Source of the DNA: Oscillospiraceae bacterium
Lineage (GTDB): Bacteria > Bacillota > Clostridia > Oscillospirales > Oscillospiraceae
Assembly: GCA_017518445.1 (NCBI GenBank)
Contig: JAFWVB010000006.1
Coordinates: 1-39,514, forward strand
Direction of reading: 5' to 3'
Length of the DNA stretch: 39,514 bases
Below, in pieces: positions 17,965 through 33,727 of this stretch. The notes under the pieces are model-generated. The model ran no database searches and was not told where the DNA came from. It was given only the letters and a program-made list of their open reading frames with translations. How positions within the stretch are numbered: position 1 is the stretch's first letter; the number at the start of each line of letters is the position of its first letter. The position numbers were made by a program, and so were the translations under genes.

Positions 17965-19055
17965 TCATCCTCCGTAAAATCGTTGTTCTTTTGCTTTTTA
18001 TAATTGCCGTCCGTAAGCTCCGGCGGCATTTTGCCGCCCGCAAGTATGTGGCTCAATTCCTTTGTTATATATGAGAGCTTCGCGGCGACGCGGGAATAGT
18101 CCATTCGCGTCGGTCCGACGACGCCGAGTATGCCTTGAAGTCCGTTTCCCGCGTCGTATTTTGCGACGATGACGCTCGAATCCTTCAGCTCCTCCGCGAG
18201 GTTTTCGGGTCCTATCGTTATCTGCAGCTCCGCGTCGCCCGCGGGCGCGGGGAGCTTTAACAGCCTCTCGTCGTCGGAGAGGTATGCGAGCAGCTTTTGC
18301 GCCTTGCCGATGTCCTGATATTCCGGATGCTGTAAAAGCTGACCCGTTCCGGCGAGATACGCCTCGCTGTGCTTTACGGCGCTTAAAGCCTCTATCGCAA
18401 AGCCCGCGATCACGGCGACGACGCCGACCGTGTCACCCGTCGTGCGTTACGCCGTCTGTATAAGCTGAGTCGTTATTTTGTCCTCGGTTATCCCCGTAAA
18501 GCCGCCGTTGAACACGGCTGACATTTTTGCGAGAGTCTCCGCCTCAACCGGAAAAGTGAGGTGTATCAGCTTGTTTTTTACCGCTTTGTTCGACAGCATT
18601 ACGACCGCTATAAACGAATTTTGATCGACGGAAATAAAGTCGAAGCGAGATATCGTCACCTGCTGTGCCGCGGCGGACAGAGCGTATACCGGATAGTTTG
18701 TTAGCATACTCGTCAGTCTGCCCGCGTCCGACACGACCTTGTCGAGCTGCAGCATTTTGTCCTTGAGCCCGGCGTTTATCGTCTCCGTCTCCTCAAGCGA
18801 GAGCTTTTGACGGCGCATAAGCTCGTTAACATATATACGATAGCCGAGAGCCGACGGGATACGCCCCGCCGAGGTGTGCGGCTTTTCGAGATAGCCGAGT
18901 TCCTCAAGCTCCGCCATCTCGTTTCGCACGGTAGCGGAGGAAATTCCGAGACCGGCGTTTTCTACGATGGACTTTGAGCTTACGGGCTCCGCCGTCTCGA
19001 TGTACTCCTCGACGATGGCGCGCATTATTTTCTTTTTGCGCTCGCTGAGATCCAT
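17961..19055 (-). pseudogene. hrcA: Heat-shock repressor HrcA, interrupted by an in-frame TAA
   Basis: HrcA represses grpE-dnaK-dnaJ by binding CIRCE. The frame starts at ATG 19055 behind GGAGG. The N-terminal winged helix (SSKSIVENAGLGISSATVRNEMAELEELGYLEKPHTSAGRIPS) is intact. Codon 203 (18449-18447) is TAA, yet the same frame continues with clear HrcA C-terminal sequence (EAYLAGTGQLLQHPEYQDI, GVVGPTRMDYSRVAAKLSYI) to 17961. Against the Bacillus protein as recalled, the spacing across the stop is unchanged, so a single base substitution is the simplest cause, not a frameshift. GTG at 18413 could restart, but no ribosome-binding site is seen. It is either a true nonsense mutation, giving a truncated and probably inactive repressor, or a sequence error. 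Confidence 0.88.
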
Positions 19056-19086
19056 ACCGCGCCTCCGCTTTCGATTTCTCAAGTTT

Positions 19087-19194: not shown

Positions 19195-19226
19195 CAAAAA
19201 ATACGGGGCGGCATAACGCCGCCCCG
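19195..19226 (-). terminator. Terminator of the carbonic anhydrase / Mrp operon
   Basis: A perfect 9-bp GC stem (CGGGGCGGC / GCCGCCCCG) with a 5-base loop, followed on the minus strand by TATTTTTTG. It lies 54 bases beyond the carbonic anhydrase stop. A second perfect 9-bp hairpin (19238-19259, CAGCTTATT / AATAAGCTG) without a T-run lies between the gene and this terminator. Confidence 0.9.
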
Positions 19227-19279: not shown

Positions 19280-19852
19280 TTACAGCCAAATGACCTCGCC
19301 GCTTGCTATGTCGTAGATAGCGGGGACAACCGTCGTTCCGACGTGCTTGATGATCGGATCAGCCTTGATCTGCTCCGCCATCGCGATAGCGTTGGCGCGG
19401 GAGACCTCATTGACTGAAGCGCCTGCCTTTACGGAAGGCTGGATCTTCTTTACGATAGCCTCGATGTTCTCCGGCAACTCGCCGCCCTCACAGGCAGCGG
19501 TGACGGCGCCGCAGCTCGTGTGGCCGAGAACGACCATGAGCGGGCTTCCGAGATGCTCTGCGCCATACTCGATGGAGCCGAGAACGACCTCGTCAACGAC
19601 GTTGCCGGCGTTGCGGATAACGAAGATGTCGCCGAGCTTCTGATCGAAATAGATCTCAGGAGCCACGCGGCTGTCGGCGCAGCACAGGATTATCGCGAAC
19701 GGCTTCTGACCCATGGTCAGCTTTCCGCGAATCTCGGCGTAGTTGTCCTTGACGGACAGCTCTCCGCTCATAAATCTGGCGTTGCCCTCCTTCAGCATCT
19801 GCAGAGCTTCTTCTGCGCTTGTCACTTTGACTTCAGGATCATGTAACCTCAT
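19280..19852 (-). CDS. Beta-class carbonic anhydrase
   Basis: A 190-residue beta-carbonic anhydrase that interconverts CO2 and bicarbonate. The zinc site is C58-A-D60-S-R62 with H111 and C114 (HTSCGA), all intact. No signal peptide is seen, so it is cytoplasmic. The ATG at 19852 has AGGAGAG upstream and matches the family start. It is last in the Mrp-like operon, 84 bases after DUF1576 with no terminator between. A separate promoter in that gap cannot be excluded. Its position suggests supply or use of bicarbonate or protons for the membrane proteins upstream. Confidence 0.93.
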   Translation of the reverse strand: MRLHDPEVKVTSAEEALQMLKEGNARFMSGELSVKDNYAEIRGKLTMGQKPFAIILCCADSRVAPEIYFDQKLGDIFVIRNAGNVVDEVVLGSIEYGAEHLGSPLMVVLGHTSCGAVTAACEGGELPENIEAIVKKIQPSVKAGASVNEVSRANAIAMAEQIKADPIIKHVGTTVVPAIYDIASGEVIWL

Positions 19853-19936
19853 AATTATGCTCTCCTTCCTGTAATTAAAATATTGCAAATGGTTACTTTA
19901 CCCATAATAAGGTTCTTCTTTTATAGGGATATGCTG

Positions 19937-21322
19937 TTATTTCAGTTCTTTCTTGTTTCTCTTGAGCAGCAGCAGGACCATCGGTACAAAGAATGTCACG
20001 ACAATCCCGAGGCAGAAGCCGTTATTGTACAGGTTCATCCAGCCGTGAAGCGAGCCGGTGTTCGGCACGAGGACAGAATGTATCATGCCCGCGAAAAAGC
20101 CGACCAGCGGACCGTGCTTATATACTACCGGAGCCATGCCGCAGCCGTAGATCGCGGCGATGACCATGTTCTTGGAGCCGACATACGCAAAGGCGGTATC
20201 CCATACATTTGCGCCTGTCACAAGCGCCTTTATGGAGGTCAAGCCGAAGCTTGTCACATAGACTCCGACCATGATCGGCGCCATCGTGCGCACCGAGATG
20301 CCGTTCGAGGCAAAGCCTACCACGGTGAACAGCGCAGCGAAAACGGGACCGTTTGCCGTCGCATTCTTTGTGAGCACGAAGTAGAGAATGCACATCAGAC
20401 CGCACACGCCCATGTTGACGAGCGATGCGCCGAAGCCGAACTGCTCCACCGCGCTGCCGGAATATTTCGCAGCGACGATGCTGTCGATGTGTCCACGCTC
20501 CTTGATAGCGATAAGGAGACCGACTACCATCAGGTATACAAGAATTACCGCGATGCATATCATGAGCTTTCCGTCGGCAATGTCCGGATAATCATGGAAC
20601 GGACCGGAGGACGTGTGTCCAAAGCCGATAACCTTCATAATTGCGAAGATGAGGAAGCCCGTAAGTCCCGCCGCAAAGCCCGCGTTGTAAAGCGTGAGAC
20701 CGGAGTGCTTTTCAGGCAGGAAGCCCGCAAAGGTCGCCACGAGATAACCGGCGATAAGACCGATCACGACGGCGAGTACGAGTCCGCCGGCGGAAAACGC
20801 CGCGGTTTCGCCCATGACCTCGTTTGAGCTCGCGTCGCCTTTTATGTAGAGGGTGAGAATGCTGACCAGCGGAGAAAGCGCCGCCGAGAACCAGCCCAGA
20901 CCCGTAACGGTCTTGATCTCCTTTTTGTGCACGAGCGCGTGGATAATAACGCCGAAGAACAGCGGCCATACATTCCAGAGCGTTTTGCCGCAGAACGCGA
21001 AGCCGAAAACCATGAACGCCGCGGCGATAGCGCCGCCGTTTATGTTGGTCTTCGTGAGAAGATAGCTCAGCATTACGATTATCAGCAGAAGTCCCGCGTT
21101 GATAAACGGAACGCCTATCGCGCCGTCCACGACCGCGAAGGTGTTGATGTCAAGCAGTCCGCTTGCAGTCTGCTGCAGGACAAAACCTCTTGAGATCTCC
21201 GCAAACGACGGCGTCAAGATCATACCGATGAGGATCGATACAAGCCCCATTCCGATAAATACAATGGCGCGCAGCACATTACCTACCGGCACGACCTCCG
21301 CTTTGTTTCCATTTGTGTTCAT
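19937..21322 (-). CDS. DUF1576 polytopic membrane protein
   Basis: A 461-residue membrane protein of the DUF1576 family, found mainly in Firmicutes, with no established function. About 11-12 hydrophobic helices are visible. Conspicuous polar or glycine motifs include LYNAGFAAGLTGFL, GFASNGISVRTMAPIMVGVY and a near-C-terminal SLHGWMNLYNNGFCLG. The paired LYN(A/N)GF sequences suggest an internal repeat. The start follows AAGGAGG. It lies between the NuoL-like gene (27 bases) and the carbonic anhydrase. Transport of an anion such as bicarbonate is a possibility from context only. Confidence 0.85.
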   Translation of the reverse strand: MNTNGNKAEVVPVGNVLRAIVFIGMGLVSILIGMILTPSFAEISRGFVLQQTASGLLDINTFAVVDGAIGVPFINAGLLLIIVMLSYLLTKTNINGGAIAAAFMVFGFAFCGKTLWNVWPLFFGVIIHALVHKKEIKTVTGLGWFSAALSPLVSILTLYIKGDASSNEVMGETAAFSAGGLVLAVVIGLIAGYLVATFAGFLPEKHSGLTLYNAGFAAGLTGFLIFAIMKVIGFGHTSSGPFHDYPDIADGKLMICIAVILVYLMVVGLLIAIKERGHIDSIVAAKYSGSAVEQFGFGASLVNMGVCGLMCILYFVLTKNATANGPVFAALFTVVGFASNGISVRTMAPIMVGVYVTSFGLTSIKALVTGANVWDTAFAYVGSKNMVIAAIYGCGMAPVVYKHGPLVGFFAGMIHSVLVPNTGSLHGWMNLYNNGFCLGIVVTFFVPMVLLLLKRNKKELK

Positions 21323-21349
21323 TGTATCCTCCTTGTCTCTCGCAGCCTG

Positions 21350-23596
21350 TTACAGCGACTTTAACATCACATACGCGATGGCGATCAGCAATCCGGCTGC
21401 AAATATAATCAGAGCATAGGACATTGTCTGGCGCAGGAGCGACTTCAGACCGCTTGCCTGTGAGGACTCTGCGTCCACAAAATTCCCGATGTTCTTATCA
21501 ATGATACGGTTGATCCAGGATTTTTCCTTGCCGCGCTCACGAAGCGCATCCTCGATATCGTCCAGAACGGGAACGCGCTCTATCGGAGTGACGGTGCGGT
21601 TATCCTCGTCCTTATCCCAAACCTCGATGGCGCTTGTATCGTAGACCTTTTTCAGGAATGCGAAATTCTTCTGTCCGTCGATTTTATGGGCGGGATACCA
21701 CTCCTTGCTCTTTGCGATGAACTCATGCACGTTCGGCTTGCGCGGAGTGTACCAGTTTGCGAATTTCCAGAATACCTTGTACCCGATTTTTCCGACAAAT
21801 TCAACTATCGAACCGATAACGCGCGTCACAAACGCGCCGATAAACGGCAGGACCTTTACCATGATCGGGCGGTAGATGCGGTCCTCGATATCCACGAATT
21901 TCGGCCAGGCGTTGATGTAGACCTTTTTGCCGTTTTCATCGCGCGACATGAGACAGCCGCGGACGATGAATATGTAGATTATCGCGCCTATCAACAGAGA
22001 CGCGGCTGCGCCGCGGAGACATGCCCACTGGAAGAAGTGCACGTCATGCGGATGTCCGGTCATATAGAAGAAGTCCTTGGCAAACTGCGAGATCGGGATC
22101 ATGGTCTTGGTCAGCGTCATGCCTAATACGGGCAAAATCAAGGAGCAAAGCGTCAGCGTGATCGCGGAAGCCTTGTTCATGTACTTCTTGTTCGAGGAGT
22201 CCATTTTGTCCTGCTTGTACGGGTTCTTTTCCCAGAACACGCAGATGTATATCTTGGTCATGTACGCCGTCGTCAGACCGCCGGTGAGGGTGAAGATACT
22301 CTCGACGACCCTGAAGACATGTGCTGCAAACTCGTAGTCATGATAGGTCCAGATGCGTTCCACGATGGACTCGTGGATGAGCGTCTTACTCACATAGCCA
22401 CTCCAGAGGGGCATACCGATAATCGCCAAAACGCCCATGCCGAAGATGAACTTCAGCAGCGGCTTGCGGTAACCGAAGCCGCGCACCTCGTTGAGATCGA
22501 GCTGATGCAAATTCATATACACAACGCCGGCAGCCATGAACAGCACCAGCTTGATGAGCGAGTGGTTCATCATGTGAAGCACCGCGCCCTGCTGTGCGTA
22601 AAAGTGGTACTGCATCGTGTCCTCTCTGCCCATCAAGATGCACTGCATCGCGATGGCTGTCAGAATGAAGCCGATCTGCGACATCGACGAGCAGGCGAGC
22701 GTTCTCTTTAAGTCTACCGAGAACAGCGCCAAAAACGCGCCGCCGAACATCGTGATAACAGCGATGCCGAGAAGCACACAGTCCCATACCCAGTCTCCGA
22801 AGAGCATGTGGGCGGAGATGATTATAATTCCGTAAACACCGGTCTTTGTCAGAACGCCCGACAGCAGCGCCGAAGCCGGAGCCGGAGCGACCGGATGCGC
22901 CTTCGGAAGCCATACGTGCAGCGGGAACATTCCGGATTTTCCGCCGAAGCCGACGATCATAAGACCTGCCGCCCAGTAGATGGGCTTTTTATCCGGAAGC
23001 GCCGCGCAGAGCTCCTTTATCTTGTCGATGCGGAGCGTGCCGATCGTGCGGTACAGCAGGAAGATGCCCATCAGCGTAACGAGACCGCCGAATACGTTTA
23101 AGAACGTATAGGTGTCGGACGCGCGTCTTGCGCCGGGCTTTTCGTCATGTATGACCATGACGTACGACGTGAACGCCATGACCTCGAAGAAGGTGAACAG
23201 CGTCATTATGTCGCCCGATAAGAACACGGCGACCGTCGCGCCTTCCGTCATCAGCATAAACAGGTAGTAACGATTTCTGTTGCGGTAATGCGCGAAGTAT
23301 TCCGCCGAGAAAACCGTTGTTCCCGCCCACATGAGAGTGGTGATTACCGCGTAAATGCTGCGGAAGCCGTCCATTTGGAATAGCAGTCCGTCATGCCCCC
23401 AGAAGGGTACGCTGAAATACTGTGTTCCCTGTCCCGAAACAACCATCACCATATAGATGGCAATCAGAAGTTCCACTATGGTAACCGCGTCGGCGAACAG
23501 GTTCCTCGCTTTTTTGTTCTTCCTGCCGATAAAGTAGCTTATGAAAGCCCCCACCATCGGCCAAAAGACCAATACCGGCAATAACATTTGGTTCAA
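21350..23596 (-). CDS. NuoL/MrpA-like antiporter subunit with long C-terminal extension
   Basis: A 748-residue proton-conducting membrane subunit, the largest of five in the operon. The core (1-460) has the key charges of complex-I/Mrp antiporter-like subunits: E138 in FTFFEVMAF, K220 in GFGGKSGMFPLHVWLP, K251 in SGVLTKTGVYG, K349 in NHSLIKLVLF and K404 in SGYVSKTL. Residues 470-550 add helices. Residues 550-748 form an unusual, largely soluble, charged extension closed by one last helix (about 727-745). The extension could be a lateral or docking arm, as NuoL uses, but similarity is not evident. The start is TTG at 23596 behind AGGAGAGG. No hydrogenase or NADH-dehydrogenase module is adjacent. 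Confidence 0.88.
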   Translation of the reverse strand: MNQMLLPVLVFWPMVGAFISYFIGRKNKKARNLFADAVTIVELLIAIYMVMVVSGQGTQYFSVPFWGHDGLLFQMDGFRSIYAVITTLMWAGTTVFSAEYFAHYRNRNRYYLFMLMTEGATVAVFLSGDIMTLFTFFEVMAFTSYVMVIHDEKPGARRASDTYTFLNVFGGLVTLMGIFLLYRTIGTLRIDKIKELCAALPDKKPIYWAAGLMIVGFGGKSGMFPLHVWLPKAHPVAPAPASALLSGVLTKTGVYGIIIISAHMLFGDWVWDCVLLGIAVITMFGGAFLALFSVDLKRTLACSSMSQIGFILTAIAMQCILMGREDTMQYHFYAQQGAVLHMMNHSLIKLVLFMAAGVVYMNLHQLDLNEVRGFGYRKPLLKFIFGMGVLAIIGMPLWSGYVSKTLIHESIVERIWTYHDYEFAAHVFRVVESIFTLTGGLTTAYMTKIYICVFWEKNPYKQDKMDSSNKKYMNKASAITLTLCSLILPVLGMTLTKTMIPISQFAKDFFYMTGHPHDVHFFQWACLRGAAASLLIGAIIYIFIVRGCLMSRDENGKKVYINAWPKFVDIEDRIYRPIMVKVLPFIGAFVTRVIGSIVEFVGKIGYKVFWKFANWYTPRKPNVHEFIAKSKEWYPAHKIDGQKNFAFLKKVYDTSAIEVWDKDEDNRTVTPIERVPVLDDIEDALRERGKEKSWINRIIDKNIGNFVDAESSQASGLKSLLRQTMSYALIIFAAGLLIAIAYVMLKSL

Positions 23597-23612
23597 GGAT
23601 CCTCTCCTCCTT

Positions 23613-25067
23613 TCAGATGATTGCCATGCTGCTTATCGGCCCAACCAGTGCGCCGAAGGCGATAATTGCGACCGCCAATATAATAAGCGGTATCGTCATG
23701 TAGCGGTTCGGATCGCTCACGCCCTTGTTAGTGACCGCCAAGTCGGAGTCCTTACCGGGCATGAACGCGGATACGCATATACTGAACAGGTATATCGCCG
23801 TCAGCAATGCGGAGACCGCAAGTACTATCGTGCCGCCAAAAGCGAGTATGTTGCTTCCGCTTCTGAATACGGCAAGAGTCAAATACCATTTGCTGAAAAA
23901 TCCGGGAAGCGGCGGAACGCCGACAAGCGCGAACGACGCTATCGTAAATACGACCATCGTCACAGGCATCGCCTTGCCTATGCCGCGCAGCTCCCAAACA
24001 TATTCTCTGTGCGTCTTGTAGAGGATAGCGCCGGCGCACAGGAACAGCGTGATCTTAACTATCGCATGACCGACAAGGTGCATCATGCCGCCGACATAAC
24101 CGTCCGCGCTCATAAGAGCGAGACCGAACAGTATGTACGAGAGCTGAGATACCGTCGAATATGCGAGACGGCGCTTTAGGTGCTTCATCATCAGCGCCAT
24201 GGCCGAGCCGTACAAAATCGTTACAAGGCTCGCCGCGAGCACTATATACTGCGCCGTTGTGCCGCGAAGCGCGTCGGGTCCTATCGAGAAGTATGTGACC
24301 CTCGCCACCGCGAACACGCCCGCCTTTACGACCGCGACAGCATGGAGCAGCGCGGAAACCGGCGTAGGTGCGACAGATGCGACCGGAAGCCATGCGTGAA
24401 ACGGCATGACGGCGCTTTTGACGCCGAAGCCGAAGAACGCGAGGACATACGCGATCTGCAGAACGCTTGCTCCTGCGAGAGCGCCGCTTATCACGCCGCC
24501 GGGCACGAACGCAGTCGTTCCCGCGGTGAGCGCTATCATAACGATGCCCATAAGGGCTATCGTAGCGCCCGCGATCGAGAATATCAGATATACGCGCGCG
24601 GCGGTCTTGCTCTGCTCGCTCTCATTGTGGATAACGAGCGGCATGGTGATGAATGTCAAAAGCTCGTAGAACAGGTACATCGTGATGAGGCTGCCCGAGA
24701 AGCTGATACCCATCATAACGCCGAACGCCATTGTATAGAATGCGAAGAAGCGGTTTTCCCCTCCCTCGTGCGTCATATACTCAAACGCATAGAATATGCA
24801 GAGTATCCACAGAAGGCTTACAAGCGAGGCAAACATCGCACCCATCGTGTCCAGCTTGAACATCACCGGGTTGCCGGGGACGAGGTCAAACAGAGTAAGC
24901 TCCGTACCTCTCGCAAACGCCGACAGCGCAAGCACGATTACCGCGTTTATAATGACTGCGGCTGCAACGAAGCGCTCTCTTGACTTGCGCGTCTGAAAGC
25001 CCGCTTTGAGGATATAGAGTCCCGCCAATATGGGGAGGAGGACCGGTACAATAAGTAAAATGCTCAT
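23613..25067 (-). CDS. Antiporter-like membrane subunit (MrpD/NuoM/N type), copy 4
   Basis: A 484-residue, about 14-helix proton antiporter subunit. Conserved channel residues are E135 (LFYELLTF), K217 (GFGVKSAVMPFHAWLP) and K248 (LLHAVAVVKAGVF), plus the HAIVKITLF lysine and GFFSKWY. It is closest in visible motifs to the copy just upstream (25082-26557), both carrying FYAFEY/FYSFEY-MTHEG/VKHEG and IYKTH, so the pair looks like a tandem duplication. The ATG follows TAGGAGGAG. Confidence 0.9.
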   Translation of the reverse strand: MSILLIVPVLLPILAGLYILKAGFQTRKSRERFVAAAVIINAVIVLALSAFARGTELTLFDLVPGNPVMFKLDTMGAMFASLVSLLWILCIFYAFEYMTHEGGENRFFAFYTMAFGVMMGISFSGSLITMYLFYELLTFITMPLVIHNESEQSKTAARVYLIFSIAGATIALMGIVMIALTAGTTAFVPGGVISGALAGASVLQIAYVLAFFGFGVKSAVMPFHAWLPVASVAPTPVSALLHAVAVVKAGVFAVARVTYFSIGPDALRGTTAQYIVLAASLVTILYGSAMALMMKHLKRRLAYSTVSQLSYILFGLALMSADGYVGGMMHLVGHAIVKITLFLCAGAILYKTHREYVWELRGIGKAMPVTMVVFTIASFALVGVPPLPGFFSKWYLTLAVFRSGSNILAFGGTIVLAVSALLTAIYLFSICVSAFMPGKDSDLAVTNKGVSDPNRYMTIPLIILAVAIIAFGALVGPISSMAII

Positions 25068-25081
25068 AAGCTCCTCCTATC

Positions 25082-26557
25082 CTACATAATCGTTGCGGCA
25101 ATGCTTGAGAATGCCTGAATCAAAGGTTGTGCGAAAATTCCGACGCCGACCGCGAGGACGGTCAGAACGATCATCGGCACGGTCATGTAAGCATTCGCCT
25201 CGGTCTTGACCATCTTGTCATACGGATAGTCGTCGCCCGGGAAAAACGCCTTTGCCATGATCGTAAGCAGGTAACCCGCAGTCAGGAACGCGGAGGTAAG
25301 AAGCACCGCGGGACCTATGTACCTGAAGGCGCCGATTTCGGAGTTGAGCGCGCCGATCGCAAGATACCACTTGCTCTCGAAGCCGCTCGTCGGCGGAATT
25401 CCGACAAGGGCGATCGACGCGAGCGTAAAGCACCACATCGTGATCGGCATTTCCTTGCCGATGCCTTTAAGCTGTGTGACAAACGTCTTATGCGTCTTGT
25501 AGATAACGCTGCCCGCGCTCAAAAACAGGACGTTTTTGATAAGCGCATGAGCGACCATGTGAAGCAGCGCGCCGACGAAACCGAGCGTGTTCATCGTCAT
25601 AAGACCGAACAGAACGTAAGACACCTGTGAAACCGATGAATACGCAAGGCGCTTTTTGAACAGCTTCTCCTTAAACGCGAGCATCGAGCCCATAAATACC
25701 GTGTAGAGCGTAAGTCCCAGAAGGACGTACTGTACCCATGTGCCTTTCAAAAATTCAACGCCGACCATGTAGTACATAACGCGAATTATCGCAAGCACGC
25801 CCATCTTGGTGATGACGCCCGAGAGCACCGCGGAAGCCGGAGCCGGCGCAACGGGGTGCGCGTTCGGCAGCCACGCGTGCAGCGGGAACATACCCGCCTT
25901 GCAGCCGAAGCCGATTATGGTCAGAAGGACCATTATCTGGAACAGCAGCATTTTTCCGGCAACCTTATCCCTTATCAGAGTACCGCCCGCAACGAAGTTC
26001 GTTGTTTCGCAGTTTTCATAAAGGAAGAAGAATCCGGCGAGGGCTATCGTTGCCCCAACAAAGGAATAAATCAAATATTTTTTGCCGGCCTTGATCGACT
26101 GATCTGCCATGGAATGCATAACCAATGGGAACGTGATCAGGGTCATCATCTCATAAAAGAGGTAAAGTGTCTGCAGGTTTGCGGAGTAGCTTATGCCAAC
26201 CAGCACGCCTATCGTCGCGACGAAAAATGTGAAGTAACGCTCCTCCATTCCCTCGTGCTTTACATATTCAAAGGAATAGAAGGTCGCCGTGCACCACAAG
26301 AGCGAAGCGATGATGGAGACGAGGCGGCTCATCCCGTCTATTTTCAACGAGATGTCGACCACGCGGTTGAGCCTCAGCACCGTGAGGGAAGTCCCGTCCG
26401 GCTGCGTAAGGGCAATTATCAGTACAACCAAAAAGTTGATGATAACTACCGCGCTGACATACAGCTCTCGCTTTTTCCTGTCATGCAGCTTTAACGGCTG
26501 CACCAGCACACCCATGATGAGCGGGAATATGACCGGAAAGAGTAAAGCGATATTCAT
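25082..26557 (-). CDS. Antiporter-like membrane subunit (MrpD/NuoM/N type), copy 3
   Basis: A 491-residue antiporter-like subunit with E136 (LFYEMMTL), K220 (GFGCKAGMFPLHAWLP), K251 (SGVITKMGVL), HALIKNVLF and GFESKWY. All residues thought to form the proton path are kept, so it is probably active. PVAPAPASA, next to the second lysine, is shared with the 748-residue subunit. It lies 14 bases before copy 4. The ATG follows AAAGGAGAGG. Confidence 0.9.
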   Translation of the reverse strand: MNIALLFPVIFPLIMGVLVQPLKLHDRKKRELYVSAVVIINFLVVLIIALTQPDGTSLTVLRLNRVVDISLKIDGMSRLVSIIASLLWCTATFYSFEYVKHEGMEERYFTFFVATIGVLVGISYSANLQTLYLFYEMMTLITFPLVMHSMADQSIKAGKKYLIYSFVGATIALAGFFFLYENCETTNFVAGGTLIRDKVAGKMLLFQIMVLLTIIGFGCKAGMFPLHAWLPNAHPVAPAPASAVLSGVITKMGVLAIIRVMYYMVGVEFLKGTWVQYVLLGLTLYTVFMGSMLAFKEKLFKKRLAYSSVSQVSYVLFGLMTMNTLGFVGALLHMVAHALIKNVLFLSAGSVIYKTHKTFVTQLKGIGKEMPITMWCFTLASIALVGIPPTSGFESKWYLAIGALNSEIGAFRYIGPAVLLTSAFLTAGYLLTIMAKAFFPGDDYPYDKMVKTEANAYMTVPMIVLTVLAVGVGIFAQPLIQAFSSIAATIM

Positions 26558-26593
26558 ACGTTCCTCTCCTTTAACCGTTTCATAATACCGGCA

Positions 26594-28069
26594 TCAATGT
26601 GCAATACTTGTCAAGAATGAAATACCTTTATGCAGGAAGTCGGAAACCGGACCCGCATACACGCCGAAAACAATCACGCCGACCGCAAGAATGATAAGCG
26701 GCATAAGATCCTTTATCGGACGCTCCTTGCTTCCGAGAGGATCGGTCATCTCCTTTGCCTCCTTGCCGAAGAACGCGCGGATAACAACAGGCAGATAGTA
26801 GAGCGCGTTTAACAGTGCGGAAACAGACAGCGGGATAAGCAGCCAGTATCTGCTGCTGTCCACGATAGCCGTCGCAAAATTCCACTTACTGTTGAAGCCG
26901 ACGAACAGCGGGATACCTATCATCGACAGGCCGCCGATCGTGAACAGCGCCATCGTAACGGGCATGAGCCTTCCGATACCGCCCATCTTGGTGAGGTCGC
27001 GGTTGTGAGTCTGCTCTATGATGGAGCCGGCGACGAGGAACAGACCGGACTTCGTGACAGCGTGCGCCAAAATGTGGAACAGCGCCGCGAAGAGACCGAG
27101 CTCTGTGCCGATGCCGATGCCCATAAATATGTAACCCATCTGAGCGACGGAGGAGTAAGCGATCATGCGCTTGATGTCTGTCTGCATGATGGCGAGGACG
27201 GAGCCGCAGATCATGGCGACGACGCCGACTACCATAATGACATTCAGGAGATTGCGCATTCCCGTGCTTGCGATAAGCTCGAAGCCGACAGCGCCGAAGA
27301 GCATCTTCATATAGAATACGATGTATGCCTTCAGAACGAGGGACGAGAGGATCGCGGAGGACGGCGACGGCGCGGTGCCGTGCGCGTCAGGCAGCCATAT
27401 ATGGCAGGGGAACAGCGCCGCCTTGAAGGCGATACCGCCGGAGATGAGCGCGAACGACCAAATCACATAGGACTGCTTTTCCGCCATGAAGCCGGCGCTC
27501 TGTATGACAGCGCCGATTCCGCTTATCGAAAGCGAACCCGTCTGCGAATAGAGGATTATCATGCCCATCAGAACGAGCGTTGAACCGAGAATGGAAAGCG
27601 ACAGATACTTGAGACCCGCGTGAACGTTTTCCTTTTGGTTCTTTACGATGACTATGCCGGCCGCGGCAAAGCTCGAAAGCTCAATGGAAATGAACACGCC
27701 CAAAAGTCCCTCGAAGAATACGACGGCGTTCAGAGTGCAGAGAAGTATCAGCACCAGACCGTAGAACATCGGGATCTTTTTCTGTTCCACATCGTGCGAG
27801 ATCATGCTCACCGACGCCCATACGATAAGGAAGCCGATGATACCGAAGATGCACGCCATGAAGCATTCAAGGTATCCGATACGAATGGTCTGTCCGAACA
27901 GATTTGTTATCTGCTCGCCCTCCAAGCTAACTCTTACCGTCATGAAGATGGCAAGCGCAACGTTGACGAGTGCTACGCCGACGCCGATTATCCTTGCCGT
28001 TTTGTCATTTTTGCAGGCCCAAGCGGCGACTGCTCCTACCAGAAGTAACGCAATTATGGCAACTCCCAT
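26594..28069 (-). CDS. Antiporter-like membrane subunit (MrpD/NuoN type), copy 2
   Basis: A 491-residue subunit with E130 (FISIELSSF), K216 (GIAFKAALFPCHIWLPDAHG), K247 (SSLVLKAYI), HAVTKSGLF and GFNSKWN. The DAHGTAPSPSSAILSSLV block matches copy 1 (DAHGTATTASSSILSGVV), so copies 1 and 2 form a second related pair. The ATG follows AAGGGGG. It comes 41 bases after copy 1. Confidence 0.9.
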   Translation of the reverse strand: MGVAIIALLLVGAVAAWACKNDKTARIIGVGVALVNVALAIFMTVRVSLEGEQITNLFGQTIRIGYLECFMACIFGIIGFLIVWASVSMISHDVEQKKIPMFYGLVLILLCTLNAVVFFEGLLGVFISIELSSFAAAGIVIVKNQKENVHAGLKYLSLSILGSTLVLMGMIILYSQTGSLSISGIGAVIQSAGFMAEKQSYVIWSFALISGGIAFKAALFPCHIWLPDAHGTAPSPSSAILSSLVLKAYIVFYMKMLFGAVGFELIASTGMRNLLNVIMVVGVVAMICGSVLAIMQTDIKRMIAYSSVAQMGYIFMGIGIGTELGLFAALFHILAHAVTKSGLFLVAGSIIEQTHNRDLTKMGGIGRLMPVTMALFTIGGLSMIGIPLFVGFNSKWNFATAIVDSSRYWLLIPLSVSALLNALYYLPVVIRAFFGKEAKEMTDPLGSKERPIKDLMPLIILAVGVIVFGVYAGPVSDFLHKGISFLTSIAH

Positions 28070-28110
28070 AGTTAAACCCCCTTTTAATTTCGAAAGCGAT
28101 TAAAATTTAT

Positions 28111-29592
28111 CTACAATATTTCAACACCTTTTATCAGCATATCGTATACGAGTATACCGCCAACGCCGAGGGCGATATTGATCGCGGCAAACAGGCTGAT
28201 AACAAAAGCGTAATTCGACGCCGAGCCCTTTTCATCTGCGTAAAGGTCTTCGTCGGGCGACGGCTTTGAGAAGATACGGAGCGCTACCAGCAGGTAGTAC
28301 ATGGCGTTCAGACACGAGCTGATCGCCAAAGCTATCAGGAAGATGTACATCTTCCCTCCTGCGTTAAGCGCAAGGTACACCTTCGAGGTAAATCCGCCGA
28401 AAAGCGGTACGCCGATCATCGAGCAGGTTCCGACGAGGAAGCCCAGCCCCGCCAATTTGTTTCTCCGTCCGGCGCCCTTCATGTCGGCGATCAGCTTGCT
28501 GTGCCCGGAAGCCTCGATGAGACCGCCCGCGGAGCTGAACAGCAAGGGCTTTGTGAAGGCGTGTACCACCATGTGAAACAGCGCAGCCGCCAGTGCCGCC
28601 CATGTGCCGACGCCGATGCCGGCGTATATGTAGCCGATCTGAGCGACAGAGGAATACGCGATCATGCGCTTTAGGTTCTTTTCCCGCATTGCCATGACGC
28701 TTCCGATTATCATACCGGCGATACCCATCGCAAATACGATGTTCAGAATGCCCATGGAGCGGATGACTTCTATACCGAATACACGGTAGTAAATTTTAAT
28801 CAGCAGTATGATATAGCCCTTTACCACAACGCCGGAAAGGATCGAGCTTGACGCCGTGGTCGCGGTCCCGTGCGCATCTGGGAGCCAGAGGTGGAACGGG
28901 AACATCGCGCTCTTCACACCCATGGACACCGTTATAAGAATAGCCGTCGCCAAAAGCGGCCAGCGATAATCTCCAGATGACACGAGTGTCTTTACCGTTT
29001 CGGATAACGCGGGGATCAGAAGATGCCCCGTAATCGCATACATTATAGCGATAGAGATAAGGAACAGTCCTGAAGCCATAAGGCTTATTATCAGGTATTT
29101 AATTGTCGCCTTTAAGGTCTCTCCGCTCTCCTTTACCATGACGATGCCGCAGCTTGCAAGAGTGTTTATCTCAATGAAGACATACGCGGTGAAGATGTCG
29201 TTGGTATAGATTAGAGCAAGTAAAGAGAGCAGCAATAAGAGAAGGAGCGAGTAATAGCAGTGCTGCTTGCAGCTTTTTACGTCCTCTAAGACGCCCTTTT
29301 TCCCCGCGGCAACAGACAGGAACAATATCGCGGAGAAAGCGAACGCCAACACGCTCTCCATGAGGCCGAAGCGAAGCTCGTTGCCCCACGGCGACGGGAA
29401 GTGACCGAGCGTGTATGTGATCGTACCTCCGTTTTTAAGGAAGTACGGGATCAGCACAAACGAGAGCGCGGCGACGACCGCAAAAATGAACTGCATAAGC
29501 AGATATGCGGTTTTTTCCTTTTTGCCGAGCAGCAGGACGATTACCGATCCAACCATCGCTAAAAGAATTGTAATGAATGGTATGTTGTTCAT
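28111..29592 (-). CDS. MrpD/MbhH-like antiporter subunit, copy 1
   Basis: A 493-residue antiporter-like subunit in the MrpD/MbhH position, directly after MrpC. Key residues are E141 (YVFIEINTLAS), K227 (MGVKSAMFPFHLWLPDAHG), K258 (SGVVVKGYI), HAFTKPLLF and GFTSKVY. The start overlaps the mrpC stop (ATGA), which implies translational coupling and a fixed ratio of the two proteins, as in canonical Mrp and MBH operons. Confidence 0.92.
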   Translation of the reverse strand: MNNIPFITILLAMVGSVIVLLLGKKEKTAYLLMQFIFAVVAALSFVLIPYFLKNGGTITYTLGHFPSPWGNELRFGLMESVLAFAFSAILFLSVAAGKKGVLEDVKSCKQHCYYSLLLLLLLSLLALIYTNDIFTAYVFIEINTLASCGIVMVKESGETLKATIKYLIISLMASGLFLISIAIMYAITGHLLIPALSETVKTLVSSGDYRWPLLATAILITVSMGVKSAMFPFHLWLPDAHGTATTASSSILSGVVVKGYIILLIKIYYRVFGIEVIRSMGILNIVFAMGIAGMIIGSVMAMREKNLKRMIAYSSVAQIGYIYAGIGVGTWAALAAALFHMVVHAFTKPLLFSSAGGLIEASGHSKLIADMKGAGRRNKLAGLGFLVGTCSMIGVPLFGGFTSKVYLALNAGGKMYIFLIALAISSCLNAMYYLLVALRIFSKPSPDEDLYADEKGSASNYAFVISLFAAINIALGVGGILVYDMLIKGVEIL

Positions 29593-29963
29593 TTCTCACC
29601 TTTCAGTAGATGCTTTAATGTTGTCCAGTCAACTTCCAGTGAATTGTATTGCTGATACCAGCGAAGCGCAAGCGCGAGAGCAAACGCGGTGGTTGAAACC
29701 GCAACCACGATGCCCGTGAGCACCAATCCGCTCGGAATGGGATTGATGTACCGGCTTGCGTCCGTCACCCCGTCTCTTATTATCGGGCTCATTCTTCCCG
29801 CGATATAGCCCTTTGCCGCAAGAAACAGGAAAACCGACGTGTCCATGATGTTAAGACCGATGATCTTCTTGATCAGGTTACGCTGGATAAGCAATATCAA
29901 AAATCCGACCACAAACAGCAGCATCGACGCCAATTCATAATAATTTGAAAACAGATTACCCAT
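29589..29963 (-). CDS. mrpC: MrpC/NuoK-like antiporter subunit
   Basis: A 124-residue, three-helix NuoK/MrpC family protein. FLILLIQRNLIKKIIGLNIMDTSVFLFLAA is the typical helix 1-2 region, and DPIPSGLVLTGIVV-like sequence (here INPIPSGLVLTGIVVAVS) marks the third helix. It is the small subunit that contacts MrpD in Mrp complexes. The ATG follows AAGGAGGGAG, 15 bases after the MrpB fusion gene. Confidence 0.93.
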   Translation of the reverse strand: MGNLFSNYYELASMLLFVVGFLILLIQRNLIKKIIGLNIMDTSVFLFLAAKGYIAGRMSPIIRDGVTDASRYINPIPSGLVLTGIVVAVSTTAFALALALRWYQQYNSLEVDWTTLKHLLKGEK

Positions 29964-29978
29964 ACGCCACTCCCTCCT

Positions 29979-31154
29979 TTACGAGATCTTCCAGTCCGTA
30001 AACAGACTGTAAAGCGTGAACATGGTGCAGGAAACAACGAGACCTACGCAAATATTCAGAGGGAAAATAAGTCCGGCGGAAAGAATGCTGCCCGGAGTGC
30101 CGAGCGGGATAATGCTTTCAATTCCGTTTGCGCCAGTGTAAACAGAGTACGTTTTGAGTCCCATGTAAACAAGGAGCGCCGCCACCATCACCTTTGAGCA
30201 GCCGTCCACCGTGGCAAACCTTTTTGTGAAGCGTTCTCCGAACGCCAGGTGGCTTAAAATCAGCGAGGCTCCGATTATCGTGCCGCCTGAAAAGCCGCCG
30301 CCGGGAGACAGGTGACCGTTTATCACGACATAAATGCCGTACAGCAGCGAGAATGGAAGCGCGATCCTTATAATGACCTTCGCCGGAAGGGATCGCACGC
30401 CTGACAAATTCGCCTCCGTGCTTCCGATCTTGCCCTCGTTGTCCTTGCGCCTTGACTGCTGGAGCAGGAATATGACCGTGATCGTCGCGGTGAACAGAAC
30501 GATCGACTCGCCGAGCGTATCGAAGGCGCGGTAATCGAGGATCATTCCAGCGACCGTGTTTACGGCGCCCGTGTCCTTTATACCCTCCTCAAGATAGCGC
30601 CTGCTCACTTCGTTTACCGTCGGATTGTTCGCCATTCCGAATTTCGGAAGCAGCGCCACTGTTACGACAAGTATGAGCGCGAGCATTATTCCGCATATCG
30701 TGGCGACCGCGCGGTACGAGCGCTCTATAGCGCCGACCTCCGCGCAGAGCTTTGCCTCCTCGCTTACCGGTTCCTCCGGCTTTGCCGGTTCCGGCGCTTC
30801 TATCGGAGGCGGCGCTTCCGCCGCCGGAGCTTCGACGGCCTCCGCCGCGGGCTCCTCCTGCGGAGCTTCGGCTGCGGGTTCTTCGTGCGACGCTTCTTTT
30901 AAAGGTTCTTCGTGTAAAACTTCTTCGTGCGCGTGCGTCTCATCTGCATGAGCCGCCTCGCAGTGGTCATCGTGACCGTGGTCGTCATGACCGTGACCTC
31001 CGTGGTCATCATGGCCGTGGTCGTCGTGACCGTGGCCATGGTCGTCTTTTTTCGGCGGGTAAACCACCTCGGCAGGGATATCCGGAGAGTTCGCGCTTAC
31101 CCAATCTGAAAAAGACGTTAAGGTTTTCTTCCCTTTATCAGAGATTATGCCCAT
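29979..31154 (-). CDS. MbhE-MrpB fusion with His-rich N-terminus
   Basis: A 391-residue three-part protein. Residues 38-91 are His/Asp-rich (repeated HDDHGH), and 92-132 are an Ala/Glu/Pro spacer. One helix (about 149-169) leads to LDYRAFDTLGE (206-216) and a second helix, which is the MbhE or MrpA C-terminal motif. Residues 259-389 are a MrpB/MnhB domain with the hallmark GHLSPGGGFSGG (280-291). In most systems MbhE and MrpB are separate, or MbhE is the end of MrpA. The ATG directly follows the upstream stop (TAGATG). The histidine stretch could bind zinc or nickel, or sense pH. Confidence 0.9.
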   Translation of the reverse strand: MGIISDKGKKTLTSFSDWVSANSPDIPAEVVYPPKKDDHGHGHDDHGHDDHGGHGHDDHGHDDHCEAAHADETHAHEEVLHEEPLKEASHEEPAAEAPQEEPAAEAVEAPAAEAPPPIEAPEPAKPEEPVSEEAKLCAEVGAIERSYRAVATICGIMLALILVVTVALLPKFGMANNPTVNEVSRRYLEEGIKDTGAVNTVAGMILDYRAFDTLGESIVLFTATITVIFLLQQSRRKDNEGKIGSTEANLSGVRSLPAKVIIRIALPFSLLYGIYVVINGHLSPGGGFSGGTIIGASLILSHLAFGERFTKRFATVDGCSKVMVAALLVYMGLKTYSVYTGANGIESIIPLGTPGSILSAGLIFPLNICVGLVVSCTMFTLYSLFTDWKIS

Positions 31155-31409
31155 CTACTCCGCATCCCCCTCTTCTTTCAAAGCGTTGATTTTTTTCAGC
31201 ACCATAATGAACAGCAGCGTTGTTATGCCGCAGCCGACCGCCGCCTCGGTAATGGCGAGATCCGGCGATTCGAGCGAGAGCCACAGCACCGCCATGATCG
31301 CACTGTATGACATGAACACTATGACCGCGTTCATAATGCGTTTTATGAAGAAAACGCTGATGGCGCAGGCGATCAGAAACAGCAGCAGCATTATAGAAAA
31401 CCATGTCAT
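31155..31409 (-). CDS. DUF4040 / MbhD-like subunit (MrpA C-terminal piece)
   Basis: An 84-residue three-helix DUF4040 protein matching MbhD, or the penultimate part of MrpA. The family signature SPDLAITEAAVGCG is present. The ATG at 31409 overlaps the mrpG stop as ATGA and is preferred. An ATG at 31430 would add seven residues. It is one of the MrpA domains that here exist as separate genes. Confidence 0.9.
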   Translation of the reverse strand: MTWFSIMLLLFLIACAISVFFIKRIMNAVIVFMSYSAIMAVLWLSLESPDLAITEAAVGCGITTLLFIMVLKKINALKEEGDAE

Positions 31410-31729
31410 GGCAGCTCTTCCACCTCGCATTCATTCTCTAAGTTTTCGTTTGTTTCAACCTCTATTTTACATACAAGATGGCTCGCTACCGGGTTTGTGA
31501 GCCAAATGAACGCCGCGATCACCAACAGCTTTATTATCGCGCCCGCACCGGTCGAGAAAAACATGAGACCGATGCACACGAACAATGCCGCGAGCGAGTC
31601 GCATTTCGCCGCGACGTGTACGCGGTTCAATACGTAACTGAAGCGGAACAGTCCGAGTGTGGCGACGCCGAAAATGAACAGCCCGATGGCGATGAAAACG
31701 GCGCCGGCAATGAGCTTAAACATTTCCAT
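31406..31729 (-). CDS. mrpG: MrpG-type antiporter subunit
   Basis: A 107-residue MnhG/MrpG protein with three helices. GLFIFGVATLGLFRFSYVLNRVHVAAKCDS contains the family's R-x-x-x-x-x-R-x-H-x-A-x-K region. The end of the third helix reads LTNPVASHL, as usual, followed by an acidic cytoplasmic tail. The ATG at 31729 follows GGAGGGG and overlaps mrpF by 14 bases. Confidence 0.92.
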   Translation of the reverse strand: MEMFKLIAGAVFIAIGLFIFGVATLGLFRFSYVLNRVHVAAKCDSLAALFVCIGLMFFSTGAGAIIKLLVIAAFIWLTNPVASHLVCKIEVETNENLENECEVEELP

Positions 31730-32021
31730 TGGTCCCCTCCTCCTTTTCCTTCTTCGCCGCGCGCGCCAGCATGTTCCGCGCCAGACATACGACGGCAAGG
31801 AAGCTCAGCAGAACGTATACCATCGCGATGTCCATGAATTGGTTGTCATGGAGATACTGACCTATCAAAAGAATAAGGATAATACCCTTTATGCTTATGA
31901 TGTTGACGGCAACGAGCCTATCCGTCATACGCGGGCCGAGTACTGCGCGCAGCAGGCAGAAAAAGATAGTTACGGACAAAAAGCCCATGGCGATAAGTAA
32001 AATCAAATTCATTGTATCCAT
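31716..32021 (-). CDS. mrpF: MrpF-type antiporter subunit
   Basis: An about 101-residue MnhF/MrpF protein of three helices with the family block RAVLGPRMTDRLVAVNIISIKGI. The start may be ATG at 32021 or GTG at 32030. The GTG overlaps the mrpE stop (GTGA) but sits too close to the AAGGGG site, so ATG is preferred. It is followed directly by mrpG. Confidence 0.9.
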   Translation of the reverse strand: MDTMNLILLIAMGFLSVTIFFCLLRAVLGPRMTDRLVAVNIISIKGIILILLIGQYLHDNQFMDIAMVYVLLSFLAVVCLARNMLARAAKKEKEEGTNGNV

Positions 32022-32026
32022 CTCAC

Positions 32027-32497
32027 TCACAGCCCCTTTTCCATGCCTATCAGCTTCTTTTCAAGCGCGGAGTCTCCGAGCCCCTCGCGCGAGTTGTCGT
32101 CGATCGCGTGGACATACACGCATCCGTCTCCGACATCCACCGTTATCGTGCCCGGCGTCAGGGTGATGGAGTTTGCGAGAGCCACGCGCCCGACTCCGGT
32201 TTTGAGCGGAGTCTTGTGCTTGACGATCTTCGGTTGTATTTTCGCATCGGGATCCTTTGACAGGACAAGCCCTATCATATGTATGTTCGCGGCGATCACC
32301 TCTACGATCAAGCGGAGAACAAAAAAGATAAACGCGGGTATTCTCGCCGCAAATTTACCGTCCCGCTTGACGCTCCACCCGGTAAACTTCGCAAGAAACC
32401 ATGTCAGTATGGCGGTGGCTATGACGCCGCTGATGATAACATCCACGGTGAACCGCCCGTTGAACACCAGCCATAGTAAGAATAACAGTATTGGCAT
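32027..32497 (-). CDS. mrpE: MrpE-type antiporter subunit
   Basis: A 156-residue MnhE/MrpE protein. Two N-terminal helices are followed by a third (ARIPAFIFFVLRLIVEVIAANIHM) and a soluble C-terminal domain with the family motif NSITLTPGTITVDV. The ATG follows AAAGGAGG. In Mrp and MBH operons this is the first structural gene (MbhA position), as here apart from the His-rich gene before it. Confidence 0.93.
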   Translation of the reverse strand: MPILLFLLWLVFNGRFTVDVIISGVIATAILTWFLAKFTGWSVKRDGKFAARIPAFIFFVLRLIVEVIAANIHMIGLVLSKDPDAKIQPKIVKHKTPLKTGVGRVALANSITLTPGTITVDVGDGCVYVHAIDDNSREGLGDSALEKKLIGMEKGL

Positions 32498-32521
32498 ATA
32501 TTCCTCCTTTAGAAAAGCCGC

Positions 32522-32809
32522 TTAATGGTGCTCTTCTTCATGATGTTCTTCTTCATGATGTTCTTCTTCATGATGTTCATCATGATGCTCTTCTTCATTA
32601 TGGCCTTCCTCGCCATGTTCTTCGCCGTGCTCACCATGCTCGTCACCGTGACCCTCACCGTGCTCGGTATGCTCGGTGTGTTCGCCGTGTTCGCCGTGTT
32701 CATCTCCGTGATGACCGGGTCCGTGTCCGTGGTTGACGTCGGCAACAACAAATATGAGTATGCCTATGACCATTGCCATTGCCACGATAAAAGAAATAAG
32801 TTTTTTCAC
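32522..32809 (-). CDS. His/Glu-rich small membrane-anchored or secreted protein
   Basis: A 95-residue protein. Residues 1-24 form a hydrophobic signal or anchor helix. Everything after is built of His, Glu, Gly and Asp (HGEHGEHTEH, then HHEEE repeats), with about one third His. No family was recognised. A metal-binding (zinc or nickel buffer) or pH-sensing role is plausible from composition. GTG at 32809 follows GGAGG by eight bases. It lies between the regulator gene and mrpE in the operon, and a second His-rich segment occurs in the MbhE-MrpB fusion of the same operon. Confidence 0.8.
   Translation of the reverse strand: MKKLISFIVAMAMVIGILIFVVADVNHGHGPGHHGDEHGEHGEHTEHTEHGEGHGDEHGEHGEEHGEEGHNEEEHHDEHHEEEHHEEEHHEEEHH
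32539..32583. repeat. 15-bp coding tandem repeat
   Basis: Two exact copies and one slightly altered copy of CATGATGTTCTTCTT encode the HHEEE repeats at the C-terminus of the His-rich protein. Repeat number could vary by replication slippage without shifting the frame. Confidence 0.85.
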
Positions 32810-32825
32810 AATGATGACCTCCGAT

Positions 32826-33485
32826 TCAGCAGTCAGATGTGTTGATGTATTGCTTCAGCGCCTCCGGGTTTACGACCCTTATCTTGTTTCTTCCGGTCTC
32901 CACGAGACCGCAGTCTTTAAGTACGCTGATATTCCTGGTAATTGCCTCTCTTGTCGTACAGAGCTGTTCGGCAAGCTCCTCATGGCTCGTGTATATCATG
33001 TCGTCTCCGAAACGCTCACAGCTTCGGAGGAGGAACATCGACAGCCGCTTGCTTATATCCTTTTCCATGCGCGCGTAAAGCGTGAACGCAAGCGAGCTCA
33101 TCTGAAGGGAAAGGGCGTCCATCGAAAATTCACGAATTGAGGGGTGCATCTCCTGAATTTTGCGCCAATGCTCATAGGGGATGAAATAAATCTCCGAATT
33201 TTCTTTGACGATAAGCTCTATGGATATGTCTCTGCAATTCGATAAAAAGGACGGCGTAAGCAGCATGGTCTCTAAGGTGCCGGCTGACAAAACCATTCGC
33301 CGCTTGCCGTTTTCGTGTATGCTGTACGCGGCTATGCGCCCGTCGTTGACAAGATACACACCGGGATTGTATCCCAACCGTTCTCCCGCGTCATACTGGC
33401 GGATTATCGTATAATCGAGTATTTCCGCCTGTTGCAGAACGGTCAGAGCTTCCCAGAATGGAAATCCCCGATCATATAAAATCAT
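32826..33485 (-). CDS. Crp/Fnr family transcriptional regulator
   Basis: A 219-residue Crp/Fnr regulator. The N-terminal cyclic-nucleotide-type beta barrel (about 1-115) is followed by a dimer helix and a C-terminal winged helix with the recognition segment EELAEQLCTTREAITRNISVLKDCGLV. It lacks an Fnr-type N-terminal cysteine cluster, so oxygen sensing through iron-sulfur is not supported and the ligand is unknown. A palindrome matching the Crp half-sites lies 57-72 bases upstream, so it may control itself and the whole operon. It is 16 bases ahead of the His-rich gene. Confidence 0.9.
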   Translation of the reverse strand: MILYDRGFPFWEALTVLQQAEILDYTIIRQYDAGERLGYNPGVYLVNDGRIAAYSIHENGKRRMVLSAGTLETMLLTPSFLSNCRDISIELIVKENSEIYFIPYEHWRKIQEMHPSIREFSMDALSLQMSSLAFTLYARMEKDISKRLSMFLLRSCERFGDDMIYTSHEELAEQLCTTREAITRNISVLKDCGLVETGRNKIRVVNPEALKQYINTSDC

Positions 33486-33557: not shown

Positions 33558-33694
33558 TAGCCGCAAAATTTATATCTGTTTTTGTGCATTTCGTCTATAT
33601 GCCGAAGCGCACGCTTACAACCGCCTCGAACTCAAAAAGATTAATACGGAAACACCAGCGCTTTCACGCGATTTACTGCTTTGTCATATATAAC

Positions 33695-33727
33695 AAAGAC
33701 GCAGCCCTCAAGGACTGCGTCTTTAAA
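33695..33727 (-). terminator. Terminator after the MscS gene
   Basis: A 10-bp stem AAAGACGCAG / CTGCGTCTTT with a 10-base loop, just beyond the MscS stop at 33737. On the minus strand the following sequence is TGTTATAT, only modestly T-rich. Confidence 0.65.

Follow-up and report, generated by a model that had tools for sequence, protein, structure and literature searches.

A fifteen-gene Mrp-type antiporter block with a co-inherited carbonic anhydrase and DUF1576 package in an Oscillospiraceae bacterium

The window analysed here is the whole 39,514-nucleotide stretch of contig JAFWVB010000006.1 (assembly GCA_017518445.1) from an Oscillospiraceae bacterium, and it carries a tight block of fifteen genes on the minus strand, running from window position 33485 to 19280. 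The genes are arranged in the order Crp-HisR-E-F-G-MbhD-MbhE/B-C-D1-D2-D3-D4-D5-DUF1576-CA, where the large antiporter-like subunits are labelled D1 to D5 by gene order, HisR is a small His-rich protein and CA is a carbonic anhydrase. Four of these genes, HisR, D2, DUF1576 and CA, form a package that was observed to recur in two phyla along with two added traits, a His-rich N-terminus of the MbhE-MrpB protein and a long D5 tail. This co-occurrence supports one functional system. We consider that the complex may couple Na+/H+ exchange to CO2/bicarbonate handling by way of this co-inherited package, and we place the probability of this reading a little below one half (about 0.48).

Recurrence of the package in two phyla

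A D5 alignment was used to scan 84,980 species genomes, most of which are metagenome assemblies; absences are therefore provisional. Of 107 related loci with D5 that were compared besides the window, 7 have all four of HisR, CA, DUF1576 and D2, 93 have none and the remaining 7 have single ones. The full sets belong to five ruminant-gut Bacillota and two Treponemataceae and are not independent, since they fall into just two clades, one of Bacillota and one of Treponema. The five Bacillota loci (L161, L162, L163, L165 and L166), which come from ruminants and deer, carry all fifteen genes in the order of the window, with D5 70-82% identical to that of the window and the Crp-type regulator kept as the first gene at 48-52% identity. 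The genes downstream of the block, named by reading translations rather than by a family search, vary: the window and L161 have hrcA-grpE-dnaK, L166 has ATP synthase genes, and L162 and L163 have others again. Between the window and L161 the block genes are mostly 70-91% identical and the neighbouring HrcA is 33% identical, which suggests that the block moved as a unit.

The next relative after these five is a termite-gut Treponema (L167/L280), from a different phylum, where the order was observed to be CA - DUF1275-like - DUF1576 - CA - HisR - E-F-G-MbhD-MbhE/B-C-D1-D2-D3-D5. A second Treponemataceae genome (L284) has CA - DUF1576 - HisR - E...D1-D2-D3-D5. The linkage thus survives a change of gene order, as the Treponemataceae keep the package genes in another arrangement. 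With the order unchanged in five relatives and the gene set reordered in two Treponemataceae, the association of Mrp with inorganic carbon is real for a subset of loci. The earlier note had named random association of the carbonic anhydrase and DUF1576 genes with the cluster as a point that would tell against its proposal; the wider family looked fatal in this respect, but the seven loci keep the whole package.

Among the loci with single package genes, L164 is of the package type but lies on a contig fragment, and L207, L215 and L238 carry a DUF1576 of another clade directly after D5. In L180 and L185 the single package gene is D2. L285 has CA alone of the four genes. At this Treponemataceae locus (L285:4429-14349), the genes for CA and a DUF1275-like membrane protein lie upstream of an Mrp cluster that has three antiporters and lacks D2, DUF1576 and HisR, and it is possible that this represents an independent CA-Mrp linkage.

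Gene content of the block and its antiporter core

The features of the block and its boundaries are as follows, in window coordinates.

33694..33725, minus strand: terminator-like hairpin directly upstream of the regulator (hairpin scan)
32826..33485, minus strand: Crp/Fnr-type regulator, block gene 1 (HTH_Crp_2, Pfam)
32522..32809, minus strand: HisR small protein (no Pfam match; motif ADVNHGHGPG)
32027..32497, minus strand: MrpE, MbhA-like (PF01899, MNHE, 5e-30)
31716..32030, minus strand: MrpF, MbhB-like (PF04066, MrpF_PhaF)
31406..31729, minus strand: MrpG, MbhC-like (PF03334, PhaG_MnhG)
31155..31430, minus strand: MbhD / DUF4040 subunit (PF13244)
29979..31154, minus strand: MbhE-MrpB fusion with His-rich N-terminal extension (PF20501 and PF04039, MnhB)
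29589..29963, minus strand: MrpC, MbhG, NuoK-like (PF00420, Oxidored_q2)
28111..29592, minus strand: antiporter-like subunit D1 (PF00361, Proton_antipo_M)
26594..28069, minus strand: antiporter-like subunit D2, extra subunit of the package form (PF00361)
25082..26557, minus strand: antiporter-like subunit D3 (PF00361, tree)
23613..25067, minus strand: antiporter-like subunit D4, sister of D3 (PF00361)
21350..23596, minus strand: antiporter-like subunit D5, 748 aa, NuoL/MrpA-like (PF00361)
19937..21322, minus strand: DUF1576 membrane protein, two-repeat (PF07613, 3e-56)
19280..19852, minus strand: beta-carbonic anhydrase, final block gene (PF00484, Pro_CA, 2e-33)
19204..19226, minus strand: terminator-like hairpin directly after CA (10-bp stem with 9 G-C pairs, T-run)

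Intergenic distances across the block range from -25 to +84 bases, and no comparable hairpin was observed on the same strand between the two strong ones at 33725-33694 and 19226-19204. The start of MrpG was re-set to 31729 by comparison with relatives. In hrcA, which adjoins CA (17961-19082), an in-frame stop leaves frames of 211 and 150 aa; the hrcA at this position in L161 is intact, with 351 aa, and the split gene of the window could be a sequencing error in this metagenome-assembled genome.

Group 3 Mrp systems are described as stand-alone, with one or more MrpD and no MrpA (PMC8415708). In the block, MrpB, C, E, F and G were found by Pfam alongside MrpD-type subunits, there is no fused MrpA, and MbhD and MbhE are separate from the five PF00361 proteins. 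The block is therefore a group 3 Mrp (CPA3) antiporter with several MrpD, for which Na+/H+ antiport is predicted from sequence. Mrp complexes are established Na+ and H+ exchangers, and the stand-alone Mrp of P. furiosus is believed to swap H+ from inside the cell for Na+ from outside (PMC8415708). The glutamate of transmembrane helix (TM) 5 and the lysines of TM7, TM8 and TM12 are kept in D1-D5, as in MbhH, which is also the best solved match by sequence for each of the five. These residues, the gene order, the five antiporter subunits and DUF1576 all agree with what the earlier note had read from the window (Pfam for the genes). Its claim that a redox module is missing was also borne out, as neither a NiFe large subunit nor a PSST-like small subunit was found in the block by Pfam and by the translations of the block proteins, and the [NiFe] hydrogenase large subunit (PF00374) was not found in the window's genome (1.3 Mb, 82% complete). 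The only PF00361 genes in this incomplete genome are these five.

The five subunits differ in their history. D1 orthologues are present across the whole family. In our tree the D2 proteins of the window clade, Treponema, Defluviitaleaceae and Tissierella form a supported clade that is sister to D1, and D2 is at most 38-40% identical to anything in the taxonomic order. A fresh duplication in the window genome was rejected as the origin of D2, since this is an old clade shared with those three groups. D4 is sister to D3 (45% identity) and is missing from the Treponema clusters, which hold four antiporter subunits. In the same tree the core subunits of Treponema fall with those of the Defluviitaleaceae cluster L180 rather than with the window clade. 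At L180 (5537-8489) we noticed two tandem D2 genes and five antiporters in all, with no CA or DUF1576; the CA of that genome sits by housekeeping genes on a separate contig.

The AlphaFold2 (AF2) model of D5, with a predicted local distance difference test score (pLDDT) of 82, shows the helix bundle of an antiporter subunit. Residues 570-616 form a lateral helix of 47 residues, residues 617-712 are an insert modelled with low confidence, and a TM helix closes the chain; the best structural matches of D5 (Foldseek) are MrpA and NuoL. From this model D5 is predicted to be the distal, NuoL/MrpA-like end of the antiporter row, bearing the lateral helix. The D5 C-terminal tail is 182-204 aa long in package loci against a median of 132 elsewhere. 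The idea that the lateral helix, by its length, measures out a row of five subunits was weighed and was not decisive, as the tail is also long in a few non-package loci.

A D5 match was found in 38 of 150 sampled genomes of the same family. From the loci with a true match, the usual operon was read as E-F-G-MbhD-MbhE/B-C-D1-D3-D4-D5, where D2, CA and DUF1576 are all absent. This four-D form without either CA or DUF1576 is common, and these two genes were accordingly rejected as a general feature of the operon. As the usual relatives have four antiporter subunits without CA, the antiporter array alone is not a CO2 system. Nor is the five-antiporter array diagnostic, because the Treponema clusters lack D4 and hold four; it is D2 that is specific to the package. 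The earlier note had contrasted the five subunits with the two of canonical Mrp, and this stands, but multi-MrpD group 3 systems are already described and the usual form of the family has four. Its proposal of a CO2/bicarbonate system holds as a carbon association for a subset of loci and fails where the five-antiporter array serves as the marker.

DUF1576, carbonic anhydrase and HisR

No sequence match of DUF1576 to solved structures (PDB) or to other Pfam families was observed. Its predicted model (pLDDT 74, predicted template modelling score 0.79) was compared with the PDB by VIA-align, where the top 36 rows are all urea transporters, Amt/Rh/Mep2, RnfD and NqrB, with Z of 12.5-9.2 and root mean square deviations of 4.4-6.8 A over about 260 residues; the next row has Z of 6.6. 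All of these belong to one known fold class, in which NqrB is reported to be closely similar to the transporters of urea and ammonium (PMC10643135). DUF1576 is thus predicted to be channel-like, because the modelled structure has the urea-transporter/Amt-Rh/NqrB fold. Asn75, Asn303, Tyr432 and several glycines are invariant across 60 DUF1576 sequences, and in the tree the package DUF1576s from the two phyla fall together in a single clade (100/99) that excludes 54 others.

DUF1576 itself is widespread, being present in 61 of 200 family genomes. In genomes with both DUF1576 and Mrp, such as G001, G073 and G127, the two lie apart. At 20 DUF1576 loci (19 from the class and 1 from the family) no linked Mrp was found, nor any CA within about 9 kb, contig ends permitting, and DUF1576 was rejected as a general partner of CA on this basis. 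In three Lachnospiraceae (L207:4555-8117, L215:11268-14917 and L238:11288-15100) DUF1576 follows a four-antiporter operon that has no CA; here DUF1576 and Mrp were brought together a second time, in a separate event. A neighbourhood of DUF1576 and an antiporter gene at L151 was discounted, as about 8 kb of unrelated genes lie between them.

The start of CA is most likely the ATG at 19852, which gives a protein of 190 aa, matching relatives. The zinc-site residues, Cys-Asp-Arg (C-A-D-S-R) and H-x-x-C, are intact in the window and in all full-length linked CAs, which bears out the intact enzyme named in the earlier note. It is a canonical beta-carbonic anhydrase for which catalytic activity is predicted, and its closest solved structure is that of the M. 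tuberculosis carbonic anhydrase, 2a5v. The linked CA is the sole beta-CA found in the genomes of the window, G845-G847, G849, G850 and G1009. In the Treponema genome G851 there are two CA copies of identical protein sequence, both inside the cluster, and no other beta-CA was found. The identical-protein CA genes at L280:7264-7836 and L280:10463-11035 flank the DUF1275-like gene and DUF1576, and they are either a recent duplication or an assembly artefact.

HisR has one N-terminal hydrophobic segment, the motif A(D/N)VNHGHGPG and a His-rich tail, and no Pfam family matches it. In a six-frame scan the motif was observed in package loci only. The DNA pattern for VNHGHGP occurs in 1 of 368 genomes of the window's phylum, namely its own, and in 2 of 364 Spirochaetota genomes, those of L167 and L294. 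At L294 (1-302) the HisR gene is cut at the contig end, and no beta-CA was found in that genome. Among the six intact package relatives measured, the N-terminal arm of MbhE-MrpB contains 8 to 25 His per 60 residues, against 6 at most outside package loci. The probable role of HisR and this arm is to bind zinc or to buffer protons close to the complex.

Proposed coupling, alternative readings and known systems

By analogy with NDH-1MS, DAB2 and the P. furiosus Mrp, we propose that CO2 (or another small neutral solute) would cross the membrane through DUF1576, and the cytoplasmic beta-CA would turn CO2 into bicarbonate and a proton. The antiporter row, perhaps assembled with its partners in a single physical complex, would take that proton on the cytoplasmic side in exchange for Na+. 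The ion gradient would thereby drive CO2 trapping and steady the cytoplasmic pH. In the opposite direction, CO2 might be released from bicarbonate with import of a proton. Na+ is favoured as the coupling ion because the E-F-G-B sodium module is present. The coupled reading also draws support from the short gene gaps and bracketing hairpins, the single clade of package DUF1576s across phyla, the linked CA as the sole beta-CA of the package genomes and the CA linkage at L285.

Several observations weigh against this coupling. The large majority of relatives carry the antiporter core without CA or DUF1576, L180 and L185 carry D2 without CA, and the independent evidence comes from two lineages only. 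The two-repeat predicted fold of DUF1576 is like that of urea transporters, Amt/Rh and NqrB/RnfD, but no sequence similarity to urea or ammonium channels was detected, and Foldseek alone gives weak E-values for the fold. In other genomes most DUF1576 genes have no link to Mrp or CA, and the protein may therefore carry something other than CO2. The rumen and termite guts are also rich in CO2, so a shortage of CO2 is no obvious reason for such a system.

The same guts are rich in bicarbonate, and the origin of the package relatives in ruminant, deer and termite guts would also suit an ordinary Mrp for pH and Na+ homeostasis, where CA and DUF1576 only help to buffer the cytoplasm and the antiporter is neither physically nor energetically coupled to CO2 hydration. 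The pH homeostasis role of Mrp is established (PMC8415708, PMC5703873) and the core is common without the two genes. We nevertheless regard this explanation as unlikely, as it gives no reason why CA and DUF1576 should go so strictly with D2, HisR, the His-rich arm and a longer tail on D5. Another reading is that DUF1576, whose fold is nearest to urea transporters and Amt/Rh and which is widespread without CA, moves urea, ammonia or another solute in a Na+-energised uptake unit, with CA handling CO2 from nitrogen or carboxylation metabolism. This seems improbable, since no nitrogen-metabolism gene was recognised beside the block in package loci and CA is the stable partner in both phyla.

Shared inheritance or block transfer might also have kept CA, DUF1576 and HisR as neighbours with no joint function, and the set is carried by two well-separated lineages only, in a block that seems to have been transferred horizontally (mostly 70-91% identical, with HrcA at 33%). 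The linkage, however, outlasts both the gene-order rearrangement between phyla and the differing flanking genes, which makes this a slim prospect. Slimmer still is the chance that the row serves as membrane arm to a redox complex with its catalytic genes at another locus. The MBH-like order, MbhH as best solved match for D1-D5 and a genome just 82% complete would allow for it, but that genome has no detected PF00374 large subunit, no catalytic genes were recognised beside roughly 100 related loci inspected, and D5 with its MrpA-like lateral helix holds the distal end.

Among known systems, the block resembles group 3 Mrp (PMC8415708, PMC5703873) in having E, F, G, MbhD/E, B, C and several MrpD with no redox module, and it adds five large subunits including D2, the distal MrpA-like D5, HisR, DUF1576 and CA. 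With the archaeal membrane-bound hydrogenase (MBH) and MBS (6cfw, 6u8y) it shares the gene order E-F-G-D-E-B-C-D, but extra antiporter subunits stand in place of the hydrogenase or oxidoreductase genes. NDH-1MS uses the protons set free when CO2 is hydrated to re-protonate its antiporter-like subunits, and it has a putative gas channel (PMC6981117). Both systems set antiporter-like subunits beside carbonic anhydrase function and a putative route for gas, but NDH-1MS has a redox arm and CupA rather than a beta-CA, whereas the block has a beta-CA, a separate channel-like protein and no redox arm. Neither CupA nor CupS was found in the block (block translations and Pfam).

In DAB2 a NuoL-like subunit is coupled to, and drives, a CA-like partner (PMC13144422), and the pairing of a NuoL/Mrp-type subunit with a zinc CA-type protein in DAB2/MpsAB is similar to that of the block. 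The block differs in that its CA is a small soluble Pro_CA protein and that it has many antiporter subunits and a Na+ module; DabA (PF10070) is absent among the operon proteins by Pfam. With no DabA, no CupA or redox arm and no hydrogenase, the block is not DAB/MpsAB, NDH-1MS or MBH. In cyanobacteria, an mnh/mrp operon that shares its regulation with the bicarbonate symporter SbtA also encodes an Mrp-type complex proposed to aid bicarbonate uptake via Na+ (PMC4390856). The link there is one of regulation, not of an operon, and no CA or DUF1576 is described. In the literature searched we found no description of the package or its co-occurrence and no mention of DUF1576.

Complex-I-like inorganic carbon pumps are known from cyanobacteria, chemoautotrophs and staphylococci. 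If the proposed coupling is true, they extend to fermenters, as a cross-phylum set in anaerobic gut bacteria, and neither a redox arm nor a dedicated DabA is required for such pumps. Recurrence of the package in a gut bacterium and in termite-gut Treponema suggests a new tie between ion gradients and CO2 handling. It is possible, while on balance doubtful, that this is a third type of energy-coupled CO2 hydration besides the redox-driven NDH-1MS and the DAB system driven by the proton motive force. Equally tentative is the make-up of such a machine, in gut fermenters and not in autotrophs, which would be a cation-gradient-driven Mrp row with a urea-transporter/Rh-fold gas channel, a beta-CA and HisR. 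The coupling offers a testable function for DUF1576 and for the family-less HisR, and the stacking of MrpD in group 3 Mrp becomes testable through the three-, four- and five-subunit forms with and without CA.

Two further loci show altered antiporter operons. The four-antiporter operon of genome G075 (L050:5911-7554) looks decayed, with a stop codon in D5 and short subunit remnants, and a Treponemataceae locus (L287:5579-16806) has two partly duplicated E-F-G-B-C sets in tandem ahead of the antiporter subunits.

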